From assembly GCF_900116205.1 (NCBI RefSeq), contig NZ_FOZS01000001.1:1364001-1428000 (forward strand): a DNA stretch of 64,000 nt, in the 5' to 3' direction. How positions within the stretch are numbered: position 1 is the first letter of the stretch; each line of letters starts with the position of its first letter. Positions 7,879-14,555 of this stretch are shown in pieces. The notes beneath the pieces were generated by a model, which was not told the DNA's origin, ran no database searches, and worked only from the letters and a program-made list of their open reading frames with translations. Position numbers and translations under genes: made by a program. The DNA comes from Halostagnicola kamekurae (GTDB taxonomy: Archaea > Halobacteriota > Halobacteria > Halobacteriales > Natrialbaceae).

Positions 7879-8256
7879 TCATAGCCCCAGCATCAGCGGC
7901 CCGATGAGCACGCCCATCAGGTGCACGCGGCGCGCCCGAAGGCGGACCGGAACCAGTCCGACCGCGGTCGCGACGACGAACACGCCGATACCGACGAGTC
8001 CGGTGAACAGATAGGAAAGCGCGAGCAACAGCCCGAGGACCACCACCGAGATCTTCCAGTAGGCGAGACGTCCCACGAACTCGAGATACGCGTCACCCAG
8101 CACGATCACGAGGACGAAACCGGCCAGTCCGGCGATGACAATACTCGAGAGCAATATCGGCACGTCGAGCGGTGCGTTCACGTTGTCGAATGCGATCATG
8201 ACGCCGGTTCGGGGCTGTCCGAGCGAGACGAGCGCGAACAGCGCGAAGATCGAGTT
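7879..8256 (-). pseudogene. 3' fragment of a tctA/DUF112-type permease gene split by an integrated element
   Basis: Read on the minus strand, codons NSIFALFALVSLG begin at 8256 and run into MIAFDNVNAPLDVPILL, giving 125 residues with two or three hydrophobic segments to a stop at 7879. This is the C-terminal part of a tripartite tricarboxylate transporter large permease (TctA/DUF112). The missing 288 N-terminal codons are found intact at 13692-14555 on the same strand, beyond the integrated element. Joining at the 11-bp repeat restores one frame of 413 residues. The isolated fragment could at most be translated from ATG 8199 and should not be functional alone. Confidence 0.85.
8246..8256. repeat. 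Left attachment core (attL), 11-bp direct repeat
   Basis: AAGATCGAGTT is found here and again at 13681-13691. It lies exactly at the point where tctA coding sequence ends, encoding N-S-I-F on the minus strand. It marks the left boundary of the integrated element. Confidence 0.85.
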
Positions 8257-8281
8257 GGTGTCTCCTTAGTATTACCTCGTA
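8257..8281. repeat. Left terminal imperfect inverted repeat of the element
   Basis: These 25 bp start right after the attL core. Compared with the reverse complement of 13656-13680 they match at 20 of 25 positions. The inner block AGTATTACcTCGTA (8268-8281) matches 13 of 14. The position directly beside the crossover core fits an integrase binding site. Confidence 0.75.
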
Positions 8282-8314
8282 ACACCCAAGACAACGGGGA
8301 CTAACAACATCACC

Positions 8315-8860
8315 ATGACTGATTGGGAACACATCACGCTGAAGGTTGAACCGGACACGAAAGAGGAATGGAAAAAGTATGCTGAGGAACACCCGGAAGC
8401 GGGGAACTTGAGCCACCTAATCCGGCTTTCTGTTCATAACGAGATGAATACTGAGTCGGAGTTAGATGACGCGCATGTCCCCAAAGAAGATGAGCGGATA
8501 GGTGAGTTGATTGAGAGCGTCAACCAGATTCACGATACTCTTGACACGGTGCAAGCCCGGATTTCTACGCTGGAGCATGATTCAGAAGTCACAGAAGGGT
8601 TTGACATGCAGAAGGCCGTCTTGTCTTTCCTTCCGACTCCGCCGGAATCGGCTCTTGTTCCTAACCCCGATTCCACAGGGTCACACGTCTACAATGACGC
8701 AGACTTTGACGAGTGGGCCGCTACTCCTGAAGGGATTTCCGAACAACTGGGTTCCAACGAGGCTGATGTGAGGGATGCCCTTCAACGTCTTGAGAGCGTC
8801 ACAGGTCTTGTAGATAGTAAGTCGAGTGACAGCCAGATTTACTACTGGAAGAAAGAATGA
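8315..8860 (+). CDS. DNA-binding protein: RHH-like N-terminus, coiled coil, winged-helix-like C-terminus
   Basis: A 181-residue protein, first gene of the element. Residues 1-50 (ITLKVEPDTKEEWKKYAEE and SHLIRLSVHNEM) look like a ribbon-helix-helix unit. Residues about 60-95 (IGELIESVNQIHDTLDTV) should form a coiled coil. The C-terminus from about 125 (EGISEQLGSNEADVRDALQR) reads as a winged helix. Its stop overlaps the integrase start as ATGA, so it is probably made with the integrase. A role as excisionase or directionality/repressor factor is an inference from position. It sits just inside the left attachment site. Confidence 0.75.
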   Translation: MTDWEHITLKVEPDTKEEWKKYAEEHPEAGNLSHLIRLSVHNEMNTESELDDAHVPKEDERIGELIESVNQIHDTLDTVQARISTLEHDSEVTEGFDMQKAVLSFLPTPPESALVPNPDSTGSHVYNDADFDEWAATPEGISEQLGSNEADVRDALQRLESVTGLVDSKSSDSQIYYWKKE

Positions 8861-9864
8861 CTGGGTTAGAAACCCTCACTGACCGCTGGCAGGACGAAGA
8901 TGAGTGGAAGGTCATCAAGAGACTTGAGCGGAAAAAAGGCAAATCTACATTTCAAGAGTATGAGCGGCATTGCCGCCAGTTCCGCGAGTGGTTGGATGGC
9001 AAGAGCCTCTTTGAGGCGGACGAGCTTGACATAGAGGATTGCATCATCGACATGATATATGATGGATACTCTGTTTCGTCGGTAAATATCCGTCATGCCG
9101 CTCTTGGTGAGTTTTTCACCGAAGCTGAGCGGCTTAACGGCAAGCGGATAGACGTGCCCCTCAATGGGAATCCTGTTGAAGAATTGCCGAAGCTGAAGGA
9201 AATTAAGCCGTACAAAGACGCTCTCAATGCCAGAGAAAGCCGAGATGATGGAGTTTGGTTTCTTGAACCAAATGACGTAAGGCAGGTAGCTGAGAATGTT
9301 CCGAAGCCGTACACTCGAAATGAGCTTCTTGTACGACTTTGCTTCCAAACCGGGATGCGAAGGAACGAACTCGTTCAAATCGAACTCGAGCATGTGGACT
9401 TTCAGAACCGTGTTATCACAATCCCGCCCGAGAACGCGAAGAACGGCGAGGAGCGAAAGGTCGGTTACCAATCCACACTTGACGCTCTTATGAGCCATTG
9501 GATTGATACAGTTCGTCCGACCGTTGCAATGGCTTCGGAAAGTGACTATCTATTCCCGAGCAACCGGAGTAAACACATCTCAGGACAGACCTTCAATGAT
9601 GTAGTTGTTGAAGCCGCTGATAACGCTGGAATCCAAGGAACGAGGATGACAAACCGAGCCGGGGAGGAGCGTGCTAAAGTGACTGCTCACGTTCTGAGGC
9701 ATAGTTTTGCGATGGCCGCCAAGTCAAACGGTTGGGATATTTACGCTCTGGCGAAGGCGATGGGTCACTCATCAGTCTCCGTGACTGAGGAAACATATCT
9801 CCACGATGATAATGAGTACATCCTAAACCACTACAGGGATGACGGACCCGGACGGCAGGAATAG
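8857..9864 (+). CDS. int: Tyrosine recombinase/integrase (XerC/D fold, SNJ2-integrase-like)
   Basis: A 335-residue tyrosine recombinase. An N-terminal SAM-like core-binding domain (about 15-115) precedes the catalytic domain with GMRRNE (Arg168), HVLRH (His278, Arg281), MGHSS (His304) and TYLH (Tyr314 nucleophile). All canonical residues are present, so it should be active. It would recombine the 11-bp cores at 8246 and 13681, integrating or excising the element. It overlaps the preceding DNA-binding gene by 4 bp (ATGA). Lower G+C than the host genes fits a transferred origin. Confidence 0.92.
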   Translation: MTGLETLTDRWQDEDEWKVIKRLERKKGKSTFQEYERHCRQFREWLDGKSLFEADELDIEDCIIDMIYDGYSVSSVNIRHAALGEFFTEAERLNGKRIDVPLNGNPVEELPKLKEIKPYKDALNARESRDDGVWFLEPNDVRQVAENVPKPYTRNELLVRLCFQTGMRRNELVQIELEHVDFQNRVITIPPENAKNGEERKVGYQSTLDALMSHWIDTVRPTVAMASESDYLFPSNRSKHISGQTFNDVVVEAADNAGIQGTRMTNRAGEERAKVTAHVLRHSFAMAAKSNGWDIYALAKAMGHSSVSVTEETYLHDDNEYILNHYRDDGPGRQE

Positions 9865-10185
9865 TCAACACACGAACTCCTCGAAAACTTAATCAAAGTA
9901 AATCATATTTTCTTGGGAAAGTCAGGGACGTCATGGGGGTAAAGAAGGCTCCGGCCCCCTCGTTTTCGGCCATTCCAAGCCATTTATTACCGAAATCGGG
10001 GGAATTGGGGTGGGTGGGGGTTGTTTCAATTTAGCAACTTAAAGTCATATCTCTGGCTTTGACTACCGGCCCCATCATTAATATACTATAATTATGAATT
10101 TTATTTCTTTTAAAAAGGGGCTCTTCTTATCACTATAAGTGAGCGGGAGTCGGAGAAAAATAAGACATCCCGTTGGCTAAACAAC
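9865..10185. other. AT-rich intergenic region of the element; candidate replication origin and promoter
   Basis: About 320 bp without a supported gene. It contains a G-run (GGGGTGGGTGGGGG near 10010), then a very AT-rich stretch (about 10075-10125) that would melt easily, then CACTATAAGTG about 50 bp before the ATG at 10186, a possible TATA box. Placement upstream of a rolling-circle Rep operon makes it the best candidate for the element's origin. I could not identify a nick site with certainty. Confidence 0.35.
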
Positions 10186-10344
10186 ATGACTGACTTAGAG
10201 AAAGACATCAAAGTTACGCCGAAAGTTCACAAGAAACTGCAACGTGCAAAACTCGAGATGTATGGAGCAGAGTCCGCCCGGTTCAGCGACGTTATTGAGG
10301 CTCTGACCGACCAAGTACTTAATGAGGGTGAGACGGATGAGTAG
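10186..10344 (+). CDS. Small ribbon-helix-helix-like protein (52 aa)
   Basis: ATG 10186 to TAG 10344. The protein begins MTDLEKDIKVTPKVHKKL and continues through SARFSDVIEAL, a strand-helix-helix pattern typical of small RHH repressors. It comes just before the duplicated-unit protein, whose ATG (10337) overlaps this stop region in a different frame, so the two are likely translationally coupled. A role as copy-number or autorepressor of the Rep operon is inferred from position only. Confidence 0.6.
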   Translation: MTDLEKDIKVTPKVHKKLQRAKLEMYGAESARFSDVIEALTDQVLNEGETDE

Positions 10345-10744
10345 TGATACAACTGTTGCCTCTGGACCGAGGAGGACTTGTATTTATCTTACTGTTGATG
10401 AGTTTAACACTCTCTCTGACGAATTTCGTGCGTCCCCTCTCGCCGAAGATAACCAAGATACGTACGAGAACAACCATCCTACGGCTGAGTACATCCGTCA
10501 ACTTCTCGAAGAACCTGTCGAGATTGATATGAGTGATTATGATGCAACGCCCCCATCGTCGCGGGAGTACAGTCGGAGTATTACGATTCTCTTTCCCGAG
10601 GGCCAATACCAAGACCTCCGAGAGAAATTCGCGCAAACACCATTGCACGATGACAAAAATGCACGAGGGACCTACGCAGGTAACTCTGCGTTCAGTGAGT
10701 ACCTGCGGCGATACCTTCGCCACTACTTGAACAAAGACGAGTAA
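10337..10744 (+). CDS. Unknown protein made of two tandem copies of one short unit (135 aa)
   Basis: Start chosen at ATG 10337, overlapping the previous gene; an in-frame ATG at 10322 is less likely. Residues about 14-57 and 81-127 share one pattern: F, then PL, then D, then TY, then N, then EY(I/L)R and L. F30/F98, PL34/PL102, TY42/TY112 and EY51/EY121 line up with a two-residue indel. The unit begins with a strand (CIYLTV and SITILF), so it may be an RHH-like dimerising fold duplicated in one chain. I do not recognise the family. It lies 36 bp before rep. Confidence 0.7.
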   Translation: MSSDTTVASGPRRTCIYLTVDEFNTLSDEFRASPLAEDNQDTYENNHPTAEYIRQLLEEPVEIDMSDYDATPPSSREYSRSITILFPEGQYQDLREKFAQTPLHDDKNARGTYAGNSAFSEYLRRYLRHYLNKDE

Positions 10745-10780
10745 ACACACGCGGCGCAACCCCAGACGAACTAATTCTAT

Positions 10781-12070
10781 ATGGACCATGAAGTAACGAC
10801 CAGCGGAGAGTACGAGGGCGGCGTGTGTTTACCGTCTCCTGATAGCGACGGGCATACTTGTCCAAGCGCAAAAATTGGTACTCCCCGAAGCGAAACGCAG
10901 TTACTGGCCGAAGACTCACCAGTTGACCTTACCGTCAAGGAGCTTGCAGGGTTGACCCTTGCCGAAGCGACAGACGTCTACAAGGCCCACAGAGCGGGGG
11001 AAGCCGCTAACGAGAGGTATACATCGGGAACCCTTCTCGGGCGAGCAAGACGGCGCTACGGTGCTTTGCTGTCCACTGATAGACAACTCCGACAGGAGTA
11101 CGATAACCCAACAGTGGCCATGCTCACACTCACTGCCAACCCCGTCTTCGGCGGGGAGTGGATTACCCCCCTCGAGCATACTGAAGCTCTTACCGAACCT
11201 CTGAGCAACGTCTTTGCTACGCTCCGCTACCACCTTCGGGAGTACAAGTTTGAGTATGCCGCTGTCCGGGGAGCGACGGACCAAGGCGTTAGCCATTGGC
11301 ACATTGTCATGTGGATTGACGGCAATCCCTCACCCGACACTTTTGCACCTGCTGTCGAGTCATTCATCAACAATTGTGATATAGCGAGCCAAGAACAACA
11401 CCCGCTCGAGGATGCCGTCAAGGTCAACACTATCCCATCGCAGGATTTGAAGCCCATCGGCAAGACCGACCGGGAGCGAGGGACAGTCTCAAAGCTCTCC
11501 CGTTACGTCGCTACGCAAATTCCGCATGTCTCTGGGGTTGACGATATGTCTGAAGCCGAAGCCATGCAGGGAGCGATTGAGTGGGCCGCTTCATCTCGAG
11601 GCTTCCGCACCTCTTCAGGAATCCAACTAACCAATGTTGAAGACAGGAACACTTGTCGAAGCACAAAAAAGTCAAAAAGAACCATTGTTGAGAAACCCTC
11701 GGAGGAACCCCACAACGAGAAAAGCAAGAGCAATCCATGCCATGAGGTATTCGAGATTGGAAGCCAAGTTCAGGAGAGTCCAAGACAGCTTCCACGAGTG
11801 GAACACCGAATCCATAACTTGACCCCACTGCCCACTTGTTCGTGGCCGAAGTGTCATAAAAGTTATAGACATTATCTGTTCCAAAGCCCTGAAAAGAACT
11901 GCTACAAATGGGGCGGTAAGAATAGCCACCAAAGCTTCCCGCCCCCTCATGTTCAGCTTAGGCGGGGTAAAGTCTCCATGCCCAGTTCACTGGAACGGTC
12001 CCATCCGCGATTTGATTTCGGACGAACCGGCGAAGACTTTTCAGTGTCTTCTTCGAGCGTGCCTCGCTAA
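10781..12070 (+). CDS. rep: HUH-endonuclease rolling-circle replication initiator (Rep)
   Basis: The first 285 or so residues are a Rep: motif 1 MLTLTAN (114-120), motif 2 SHWHIVMW with the HUH histidines His172 and His174, and motif 3 LSRYVATQ with the nicking Tyr242, followed by WAASSRGFRTSSG. One catalytic Tyr suggests a plasmid/pleolipovirus-type Rep. It would nick the origin and start replication of the excised circle. Residues 286-429 are Arg/Ser/Pro-rich and overlap an antisense membrane-protein gene and the end of an antisense HTH gene, so the true C-terminus is doubtful; the tail could be run-on sequence after a frameshift. N-terminus from ATG 10781 is plausible. Confidence 0.82.
   Translation: MDHEVTTSGEYEGGVCLPSPDSDGHTCPSAKIGTPRSETQLLAEDSPVDLTVKELAGLTLAEATDVYKAHRAGEAANERYTSGTLLGRARRRYGALLSTDRQLRQEYDNPTVAMLTLTANPVFGGEWITPLEHTEALTEPLSNVFATLRYHLREYKFEYAAVRGATDQGVSHWHIVMWIDGNPSPDTFAPAVESFINNCDIASQEQHPLEDAVKVNTIPSQDLKPIGKTDRERGTVSKLSRYVATQIPHVSGVDDMSEAEAMQGAIEWAASSRGFRTSSGIQLTNVEDRNTCRSTKKSKRTIVEKPSEEPHNEKSKSNPCHEVFEIGSQVQESPRQLPRVEHRIHNLTPLPTCSWPKCHKSYRHYLFQSPEKNCYKWGGKNSHQSFPPPHVQLRRGKVSMPSSLERSHPRFDFGRTGEDFSVSSSSVPR
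11672..11950 (-). CDS. Small membrane protein (92 aa), antisense to the rep tail
   Basis: MRGREALVAILTAPFVAVLF opens a hydrophobic helix (about residues 5-30), and LEYLMAWIALAFLVVGFL (about 67-85) is a second, with a short amphipathic middle part. Hydrophobic segments this coherent are unlikely to be a shadow; the rep frame opposite is Arg-rich, as expected opposite a membrane protein. The ATG lies 7 bp after the stop of the HTH gene on the same strand, so they would be one operon. Function unknown. Confidence 0.5.
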   Translation of the reverse strand: MRGREALVAILTAPFVAVLFRALEQIMSITFMTLRPRTSGQWGQVMDSVFHSWKLSWTLLNLASNLEYLMAWIALAFLVVGFLRGFLNNGSF

Positions 12071-12359
12071 GTCGTTCAGGAGCATACTTCTTGACTGCCC
12101 AGAGTAGCCCCTTTCGGCTCGTTAGAACCTCTAAATCGCTATCGTCGTCATTTCGCTCGAAGACATAACCGATAACTGGAGTATTTCGGTCTCCGTCGAT
12201 TCTGTCTTCTTCCATAGCGTCCATAGCGAGCGAATAGGCGTAACTGTGGCTGATGTCGAGTTCATCAGCGATGTCCGACACAGACACCTTTCCTGATTTA
12301 TTTACGAACTCTACGAGCTGGTCGATTTGGTCTTGACGTGATGCCATATCTTGTGACAT
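11958..12359 (-). CDS. Winged helix-turn-helix DNA-binding protein
   Basis: Start chosen at ATG 12359 (MSQDMASRQDQ), 133 residues; the frame upstream to 12542 does not read like protein. Residues about 8-50 (IDQLVEFVNKSGKVSVSDI then LDISHSYAYSLAMDAM) form a clear wHTH. The rest (LLWAVKKYAPERL, KTLKSLRRFVRNQI) is helical and basic. It is encoded opposite to rep, a common arrangement for an element's regulator, and is followed by the small membrane protein. Control of integrase or rep expression is an inference. Confidence 0.7.
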   Translation of the reverse strand: MSQDMASRQDQIDQLVEFVNKSGKVSVSDIADELDISHSYAYSLAMDAMEEDRIDGDRNTPVIGYVFERNDDDSDLEVLTSRKGLLWAVKKYAPERLSEARSKKTLKSLRRFVRNQIADGTVPVNWAWRLYPA

Positions 12360-12594
12360 ATTTGCCAGCCCGATTTTTTGGGTAAAGCTTACATTGCTCC
12401 TGCTACCAGTCTGTGTCACAACCACACCGACAGGCAACAGTCCCAAGTCGGGCTGAAAGGTTCGGTTCAACCTCATTGGCTCGCTCGCAACTTTGGCAGG
12501 TGGAGAACGAGCCTCAGTCGGTCGGTGCATGGTATCCAACATATTTCTTCAGGGTCCAACCCGCATTAGTGCGGTCTCTTCTGATTCCCAATAG

Positions 12595-13476
12595 GTGATG
12601 GCCGTTAAAAAGACTTTTGTGGAGGTAGTTATGCCATCAGAGATTACTCGATTGTTCTTGATAGTACGGAATCACCCATACTATAAGTGGTTTCGCGACT
12701 CCGGTATAAGTATGCAACAGTCAGAATTTGATTTCAAGGTAGAGAATCGAGTCCATATCATGCCAATCGGGTTTGAGTTTGACCGGGCGCACCTCCCTGC
12801 TAAGGAATTGAAAGCTGATACAGTCATCCTGCTAATGCATGAGTCCGACGATGATGATGAAGAAGACCGAATAAAGGAAATTCAAGATAAGCTGGATGAA
12901 TATGGAATAGACTCCGAGAAGGATAAATGTAGGCTTTTCAATATGTATGATGCTCTCGGCATGATTGCCGAGAAGATTAACGAGTTCAGTTCGGAAGATG
13001 TGTACGTGAATCTATCAACGGGTGGAAAAGTGACCGCGATTGCAGGGATGATTGCCTGTATGGTTGCTGATGCAACTCCTTATTATGTTCAAGCGAAAGA
13101 TTATGGCCCAACACCGCCCGAAGGAGTCGCTGAAATAACAAAGCTACCACGCTATCCAATTGATTCGCCAGATTATCAAGAAATTGCAGTTCTAAATTTC
13201 ATCAAGGAAAGAACGTCAGAGGACTCAGCCCCAACAAAGGGAGAACTAATTGAATTTGGGGAGGAGATAGGTCTACCGTTCATTGCAGACCATGATGTAG
13301 AACAGAAAGGAAAATACCGGCTCTTAGACAACCACGTAATAAACCCCTTGGAAGATGATGGGTATGTTACCACAGAAAAGAAAGGTCGTGAGAAAATCGT
13401 GAAACTCACTTCCGATGGACAGAACACCCTCCATGCATTTCGGTATCTTATCGAGGATGAATATACTGTGGAGTAG
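12595..13476 (+). CDS. HFX_2341/DUF6293-like protein: CARF-type Rossmann domain plus winged helix
   Basis: VHIMPIGFEFDR begins a Rossmann-like domain that includes VILLMHESDDDDE, YVNLSTGGKVTAIAG (the NxSTGGK-type ligand loop of CARF-like domains) and TPYYVQAKDYG. The C-terminal 90 residues (AVLNFIKERT to EKIVKLTSDGQN) form a winged helix. This matches the haloarchaeal HFX_2341 regulators, distant relatives of CRISPR-linked Csa3. Family logic suggests nucleotide-ligand sensing and DNA binding; no cas or cyclase gene is nearby. The start is uncertain: ATG 12712, about 29 bp after a TATA-like ACTATAAG, would fit the family N-terminus better than 12595, which has its own GGTG before ATG. Low G+C; it is cargo beside attR. 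Confidence 0.75.
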   Translation: MMAVKKTFVEVVMPSEITRLFLIVRNHPYYKWFRDSGISMQQSEFDFKVENRVHIMPIGFEFDRAHLPAKELKADTVILLMHESDDDDEEDRIKEIQDKLDEYGIDSEKDKCRLFNMYDALGMIAEKINEFSSEDVYVNLSTGGKVTAIAGMIACMVADATPYYVQAKDYGPTPPEGVAEITKLPRYPIDSPDYQEIAVLNFIKERTSEDSAPTKGELIEFGEEIGLPFIADHDVEQKGKYRLLDNHVINPLEDDGYVTTEKKGREKIVKLTSDGQNTLHAFRYLIEDEYTVE

Positions 13477-13655
13477 TTAATTCCATCCAAATAAAGTTGA
13501 TATATACCGGAAATTTGGACGTGTGTCTGTTAAAAATCTGGACTACCCAATTCGGTTCGAAATTCGTTCCGTTGTTCAAAATATATAAAAAATCACTCTA
13601 CTAACACGGTTATATGATGCACCAACTATTAGTGGTTAGAAGTAATTCTACGTAA

Positions 13656-13680
13656 TACGAAGTAATACTGAGTGGACACA
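13656..13680. repeat. Right terminal imperfect inverted repeat of the element
   Basis: Partner of 8257-8281, lying directly inside the attR core with the same 11-bp spacing between the core and the conserved block (13656-13669). A further copy of the AAGTAAT unit lies at about 13640, so this end may hold two integrase-binding sites. Confidence 0.75.
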
Positions 13681-13691
13681 AAGATCGAGTT
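13681..13691. repeat. Right attachment core (attR), 11-bp direct repeat
   Basis: Second copy of AAGATCGAGTT, in the same orientation as 8246-8256. It sits where the 5' tctA fragment breaks off. Removing one copy with the intervening DNA rebuilds the permease frame. Confidence 0.85.
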
Positions 13692-14555
13692 TGCCGTGTC
13701 GACGCCGCTCGTCGCGACGATGTACCCCCGATTCCCCGATTCGCCTGGAACGAAGACGAGGACGGCGACCGCAGCGATAGCCGCCGAGATACCCGGAACG
13801 TACCCGACGACGGCGCCCGCGAACGAACCCGCAAGCGCCGTTATCCCGACCAGCCGACGCGGCATCCGAATCGCTTCGTCGCGCTGGGGCGGGACGCCGC
13901 CGCCGCGAATCGCTTCGATCAGTACGGGTGCGCCGAACAGTCCGGCGAAAAGCGGCGCGAGCATCCCGCCGGCCTCGAGGGGCGCGTCGGGGGTGAGATC
14001 GAGCGTCGCCGCGCCGAGTGCCGTCGCCAGACCGAACGAGAGGGCGGCCCCCGCACATCGCTTCCAGGTGCGCTCCGAGGCGATCAGTGCGACGACGACC
14101 ATCGCGAGCACGATCGAGAGGTTCGCGCTGATCGTCGGATAGACGGCAGTGACGCCCCAGGTGATCGGGAGCGCGAGCGGGACCGCCGCGAGAACTGCGA
14201 GCAGACTCCCGAGCGCGGAGAGGCGGATCGCCTCGTACCCGCGGCCCTCGAGCACCATTCGGTGTGCGGGCAGCGCGGTGACCGCCATCTCGGCGTCCGG
14301 CACTCCGAGCGCCATCGCCGGAACGGCGTTGACGAACGTGTGGACGACGCCAGCCGCGAGCATCGCACAGCCGACGAAAAGCGGCCGCCCGGGAACCGAG
14401 GGCGCGACGCCCGCCAGCAACAGCGCGAAGTTGTTCGCGTGCAGTCCCGGGATCAGCCCGCTACAGCTACCGAGGGCCGCACCCGCGAGTACCCACGCGA
14501 CGAGCTGGGCCGACAGCGCGGGATCGACCAGCGACTCGAGAACGGGGACGGCCAT
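13692..14555 (-). pseudogene. 5' part of the split tctA/DUF112-type permease gene
   Basis: Minus-strand frame from ATG 14555: 288 codons of a polytopic membrane protein with GLIPGLHANNFALLL, VPDAEMAVTALPAHRM and YVPGISAAIAAV, features of the TctA/DUF112 family of tripartite tricarboxylate transporter permeases. The frame breaks after TSGVDTA, at the right 11-bp core, and runs into about 20 element-encoded residues up to a stop at 13629. The remaining 125 codons are at 7879-8256. No TctB or TctC gene is adjacent, as is common for archaeal single-gene members. The transporter should be inactive while the element is in place. Confidence 0.87.

Follow-up and report, generated by a model that had tools for sequence, protein, structure and literature searches.

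HFX_2341 (Crr), a global repressor of the haloarchaeon Haloferax mediterranei, reduces the level of cas mRNA; it is chromosomal and mostly vertically inherited, and the accessible part of its published description mentions no operator (PMC11434293). CARF domains frequently act in CRISPR defence as sensors of small nucleotide signals. Csa3, which is CRISPR-associated, is built of a CARF domain followed by a winged helix, with a G-F/Y motif in the first loop and a glycine in motif 2; its cA4 motifs are G-F-(N/D) and G-hydrophobic-R98 (PMC8844856), and a palindrome (CAPPa) has been linked to it. MM_0565 of Methanosarcina mazei, a stand-alone CARF regulator that the host encodes beside a CRISPR locus, acts on a gene of a mobile element (casposon cas1-solo) and also binds the promoter of its own gene, with no distinct binding motif found (PMC7465815).

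The gene considered here comes from Halostagnicola kamekurae and lies in the window, that is, the whole 64-kb stretch of DNA that was analysed. In contrast to HFX_2341 and MM_0565, it is the cargo of a small integrative element, and unlike Csa3, it has no adjacent cas genes. It is preceded by a predicted 24-bp dyad operator, which parallels the palindrome linked to Csa3.

A CARF and winged-helix protein of the DUF6293 family

The original prediction had read the product of a plus-strand open reading frame at 12595–13476 (293 aa, containing VNLSTGGK) as a CARF-type, HFX_2341-like protein that joins an NLSTGGK ligand loop to a C-terminal winged helix, and searches with DUF6293 and CARF profiles bear this out. 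HFX_2341_N (PF19810) matches residues 52–170 (E 3e-36; 124.9 bits against a Pfam gathering score of 30), and the winged helix DUF6293_C (PF22665) matches residues 183–282 (E 7e-33; 113.6 bits against 27), both of which place the protein in the DUF6293/HFX_2341-like family, while its best PADLOC match is CARF3 (CARF clade 3; E 2e-85). The ligand-loop motif N-x-S/T-x-G-x-K is conserved in the protein and its relatives and, together with the profile match, assigns it to clade CARF3 of the CARF superfamily; more broadly, two CARF-pocket motifs are conserved, P-x-G-F/Y-E-xx-R and N-x-S/T-x-G-G/S-K. A search of PDB sequences with the single protein gave no match, and profiles of its relatives gave weak ones, the best of which included two CARF proteins, Card1 and SSO2081, the latter a ring nuclease; the CARF fold is assigned from sequence profiles. 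Judged in this way, the protein is a CARF and winged-helix regulator of the DUF6293/HFX_2341 family, for which a signal-sensing function is plausible.

HFX_2341 has the same two Pfam domains in the same order and, like the window protein, is likely a transcription regulator. Nevertheless, the window protein occupies a separate branch of the tree and scores 14.9 bits with the HFX_2341 equivalog NF051475 (NCBIfam), against a cut-off of 500. It also falls below the thresholds of the Csa3 models, TIGR01884 (32 versus 60.2 bits) and Csa3_N (25.3 versus 27 bits), and has G-F/Y-E and G-G/S-K in place of the cA4 motifs of Csa3. By these measures it is a DUF6293 member, but neither an HFX_2341 orthologue nor a Csa3. 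Of 125 genomes from the host's family (Natrialbaceae), 90 encode a member of the DUF6293 family, and the host itself has two further copies.

The gene probably starts not at 12595 but at the in-frame ATG 12712, giving 254 aa, because the block of operator and TATA-like box (12661–12687) falls within codons 1 to 39 of the long frame and because relatives, with N-termini near 'M..(V)ENRVHI', start there. This ATG is about 28 nt downstream of the TATA-like box, a distance expected for a leaderless haloarchaeal transcript, and we infer that the promoter is leaderless.

The integrative element and the carriers of related genes

The proposal that the gene is cargo of a small integrative element stands, given the boundaries found (Table 1). 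The 11-bp AAGATCGAGTT occurs in the window as two copies only, and when the flanks beyond them are joined, a single uninterrupted 413-aa TctA permease ORF appears on the minus strand, its two parts matching TctA positions 2–298 and 340–422. Since excision between the cores restores TctA, the element comprises 8246–13680 plus one core (13681–13691). The integrase, the attL/attR direct repeat, and the restored empty site identify it as a tyrosine-recombinase integrative element, and its GC content is 48.5% (43% in the CARF gene) compared with 61–69% in the flanks. As anticipated, the CARF gene lies just inside attR, and no cas, cyclase, or effector genes are found inside the element. The host's TctA-type transporter gene, split by the insertion, is probably inactivated. 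On contig C6 the host has a CRISPR array whose spacers, the ones compared, do not match the element.

Table 1. Features of the element, its insertion site, and the CARF locus (positions in the window)
Feature	Positions	Strand	Remarks
Host TctA permease gene, 3′ part, interrupted	7879–8245	−	
Integrative element including both core repeats	8246–13691		5435 bp between equivalent core positions
attL core AAGATCGAGTT	8246–8256	+	11-bp direct repeat
Left arm repeat GTGTCnnCTnAGTATTACnTCGTA	8258–8281	+	inverted relative to right arm
181-aa ORF paired with integrase	8315–8860	+	homologues precede related integrases
Tyrosine recombinase (integrase), 335 aa	8857–9864	+	Pfam Phage_integrase 2e-33; PHROG integrase 8e-46
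52-aa small protein	10186–10344	+	ribbon-helix-helix-like by eye
140-aa ORF, no family	10322–10744	+	
Rolling-circle Rep (DUF1424), 429 aa	10781–12070	+	Pfam DUF1424 7e-12
Divergent small HTH partner gene, 133 aa	11958–12359	−	ORF open to 12542
Intergenic gap, 352 nt	12360–12711		length conserved; partner-proximal part folds better than shuffles
Dyad operator (predicted) ATAGTACGGAATCACCCATACTAT	12661–12684		−51 to −28 from ATG 12712
TATA-like box ACTATAAGT (inferred from sequence)	12679–12687	+	overlaps right arm of operator
CARF and winged-helix regulator, 254 aa	12712–13476	+	probable true frame; open frame from 12595
Right arm repeat, inverted copy of GTGTCnnCTnAGTATTACnTCGTA	13656–13679	−	
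attR core AAGATCGAGTT	13681–13691	+	11-bp direct repeat
Host TctA permease gene, 5′ part, interrupted	13692–14555	−	

The Rep of the element has distant homologues in small haloarchaeal rolling-circle plasmids (DUF1424 Rep, 1.7–2.5 kb), which, judging by their size, would have no integrase, whereas the element has one. None of the related loci tested combines a CARF relative with a related Rep.

In a tree of 60 proteins, the window protein belongs to a six-member clade (support 100/96) together with proteins from Halomicrococcus, Haloplanus, Halobaculum, Halogeometricum, and Halogranum, and this clade is carried largely by mobile DNA. The Halomicrococcus copy resides in an integrated tailed provirus with tape-measure, neck, and primase genes, whose integrase is 42% identical to that of the element and has ahead of it a 240-aa ORF that corresponds in position to the window's 181-aa ORF. 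The Haloplanus and Halobaculum copies are plasmid-borne, the Halogeometricum copy is near an integrase and an ArdC-like gene, and this carrier and that in Halogranum are contigs of uncertain type. Related mobile DNA therefore does carry the gene: close kin are found on the provirus, on plasmids, and next to an integrase, but not on host-family elements with a related Rep or integrase, in the stretches taken from them. Searches of viral contigs and of phage records for relatives gave none.

Genes of the sister branches stand in varied surroundings. Depending on the branch, the divergent neighbour is a ubiquitin-like operon, an Argonaute locus, SHMT genes, or E2/E1 genes with an integrase next to them; in other cases the gene lies downstream of an EamA transporter gene. 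In Natrinema (L077, 3108–5870, and L037), a dyad-bearing DUF6293 gene is divergent from an apparent ubiquitin-like operon with an 86-aa gene, a DUF7665-like E2 candidate, JAB, and an E1 with a BilD match. E1, E2, DUF6293, and often an integrase form a block in L084, L085, L090, L103, L105, L107, and L046, the proteins of which are 91–99% identical across several haloarchaeal genera, so that the block is probably a recently spread mobile unit. In L106 and L117, the DUF6293 gene and a prokaryotic Argonaute locus point away from each other, and in L117 a DUF2797 gene separates the two.

Predicted dyad operator, divergent partner, and the gap between the genes

The dyad, 24 bp of the form ATAGT-N14-ACTAT, has its sole perfect copy in the window upstream of the CARF gene, and it is present at that place in all six clade members. 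When gaps of 13–15 are allowed, the 1.06 Mb of collected neighbourhoods contain 14 occurrences, of which nine lie in the 180 nt around a DUF6293 gene start, a zone that makes up 1.4% of the sequence (odds ratio 129, Fisher p 3e-14; the dyad was discovered on part of these data, the host C4 paralogue, L079, and L172 being later confirmations). The partner contexts differ among the nine, which also include an occurrence in a Nitrosopumilus genome. The exact dyad is rare in the 125 host-family genomes and absent from most chromosomal DUF6293 genes, and thus marks some branches of the family. Within the 4.1-Mb host genome there are six dyads, two of which are at promoters, those of the window gene and the C4 paralogue, both DUF6293, while the other four could not be assigned clearly to the promoter of any called gene; the evidence points to self-regulation and a divergent partner gene rather than to a broad host regulon. 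Self-regulation by a dimer would be the simplest reading of the dyad. A second conserved dyad, ATAGTnnnTATACAnATGnTACTAT, is found in L086 (about 6057), L125 (about 8487), and L130 (about 7466), about 41 bp upstream of a hypothetical gene in L086 and L130, and may be a second site at which a DUF6293 regulator acts.

A small gene on the opposite strand faces the CARF gene in 6/6 members of the clade. The window partner is homologous to those in Haloplanus and Halogeometricum, and a pairwise BLASTP match has E 1e-11. In the whole plasmid collection it finds a single match, to the gene partnered with the best DUF6293 hit; the partners of three other members look unrelated. A homologue of the window partner is also encoded in L205 (8272–8628), in whose genome no DUF6293 relative was found.

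The gap between the two genes measures 352, 385, 350, 354, 356, and 351 nt in the six clade members and 343–358 nt in the sister group, apart from one of 405 nt. Overall, 9 of 11 loci fall within 343–358 nt, the loci including the window (12360–12711), L076, L078, L094, L098, L100, L083, L118, L129, and L081. Unlike its length, the sequence of the gap is hardly conserved. The 150 nt nearest to the partner fold better than their dinucleotide-shuffled versions, with mean z values of −2.1 and −1.6 on the two strands compared with −0.4 for intergenic controls (p 2e-6, pooling both strands, which are not independent). An Rfam search of the gap gave no match, and a covariance model built from three gaps recovered only its own members and so gives no sign of a shared RNA family; an RNA encoded in the gap is a possibility. 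Outside the closely related pair L078/L100, no conserved peptide was found in the gap.

Proposed regulation and candidate signals

The model that we consider reasonably probable as a whole is that of a CARF and winged-helix switch that represses itself. A dimer would bind the 24-bp dyad, which overlaps the TATA box in the protein's own leaderless promoter, and with the dyad occupied the CARF gene would be repressed; the CARF pocket, in turn, would probably bind a nucleotide-type ligand that changes DNA binding, thereby switching the CARF gene and the divergent HTH partner. Precedents exist for several of these steps, such as the binding of MM_0565 to its own promoter (PMC7465815), the action of HFX_2341 mainly as a repressor (PMC11434293), and the link of Csa3a to an 18-bp palindrome, Csa3a itself showing non-specific DNA binding in vitro (PMC8699464). 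Control of the partner is uncertain, since about 300 nt separate the dyad from the start of that gene, and the switch may also control the element. A more elaborate version is doubtful: the small, fast-evolving HTH-type partner, a non-coding stretch of about 350 nt that is structured as RNA or DNA and constant in length, and the CARF and winged-helix switch might form a three-part mobile module, in which the CARF protein would respond to a nucleotide signal of infection or stress and thereby turn the module and the element on or off independently of CRISPR.

As for the signal, the protein might sense cyclic di-AMP or another host nucleotide and couple the element to host physiology, a reading that is possible, albeit unlikely. 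The host encodes a diadenylate cyclase domain, relatives of the gene are found beside metabolic genes (SHMT, EamA), and c-di-AMP has been suggested for HFX_2341 (PMC11434293); however, no CARF pocket is known to bind c-di-AMP.

The original prediction had proposed that a host-made (cyclic oligo)nucleotide could be sensed and so set the response of the element or the host to infection; sensing of a cyclic oligoadenylate produced by a type III CRISPR system of the host is improbable. CARF-type motifs are conserved in the protein and Csa3 binds cA4 (PMC8699464, PMC8844856), but Arg98 in motif 2 of Csa3 is replaced by Lys, and the family is common in haloarchaea, including CRISPR-negative species (PMC11434293). 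Moreover, the only cas genes seen in the host are type I-B-like, at a locus on contig C13, and searches for Cas10 gave no match to the palm2 model and only a sub-threshold fragment with the Csm1 model, so that such a signal is unlikely in this host. Separately from that locus, contig C6 carries the host's second CRISPR array (L183, 8896–9664), which is short, has repeats of 37 nt, and stands beside Cas1/Cas2-like fragments and an SbcCD-like gene pair.

Very improbable is a counter-defence role, in which a CARF ring nuclease or sponge would remove cyclic nucleotide signals in those hosts that possess them and the winged helix would serve self-control. The profile similarity to SSO2081 and the motif-2 lysine, in place of the arginine of Csa3, make ring-nuclease activity a minor possibility, and such a lysine is common to many other CARF proteins. 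Sso1393 is a CARF and winged-helix ring nuclease (PMC8699464), and the location of the clade on mobile DNA would be consistent with counter-defence; on the other hand, the present host lacks a detectable Cas10, and HFX_2341, a relative encoded on the chromosome, acts as a regulator (PMC11434293). Finally, despite the many chromosomal family members in host-family genomes, a usual host gene standing beside attR by chance is ruled out by its position between the two cores, the restoration of TctA upon removal, the low GC content, and the nearest kin on a provirus and plasmids.

While the DUF6293/HFX_2341 family was already known, the novelty lies in a clade borne mainly by mobile DNA, whose members share a conserved operator, a divergently oriented partner gene, and a nearly constant spacing between the two genes. 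DUF6293 regulators are present in most haloarchaea, and the accessible part of the literature reports no DNA site for them; the conserved operator makes both their ligand and their DNA site directly testable, and a defined 24-bp DNA with a reporter is usable for ligand screening. A clade whose carriers are largely viruses, plasmids, and a 5.4-kb integrative element, together with sister genes divergent from ubiquitin-like and Argonaute genes or beside transporter genes, suggests that archaea make wide use of CARF signalling beyond CRISPR.
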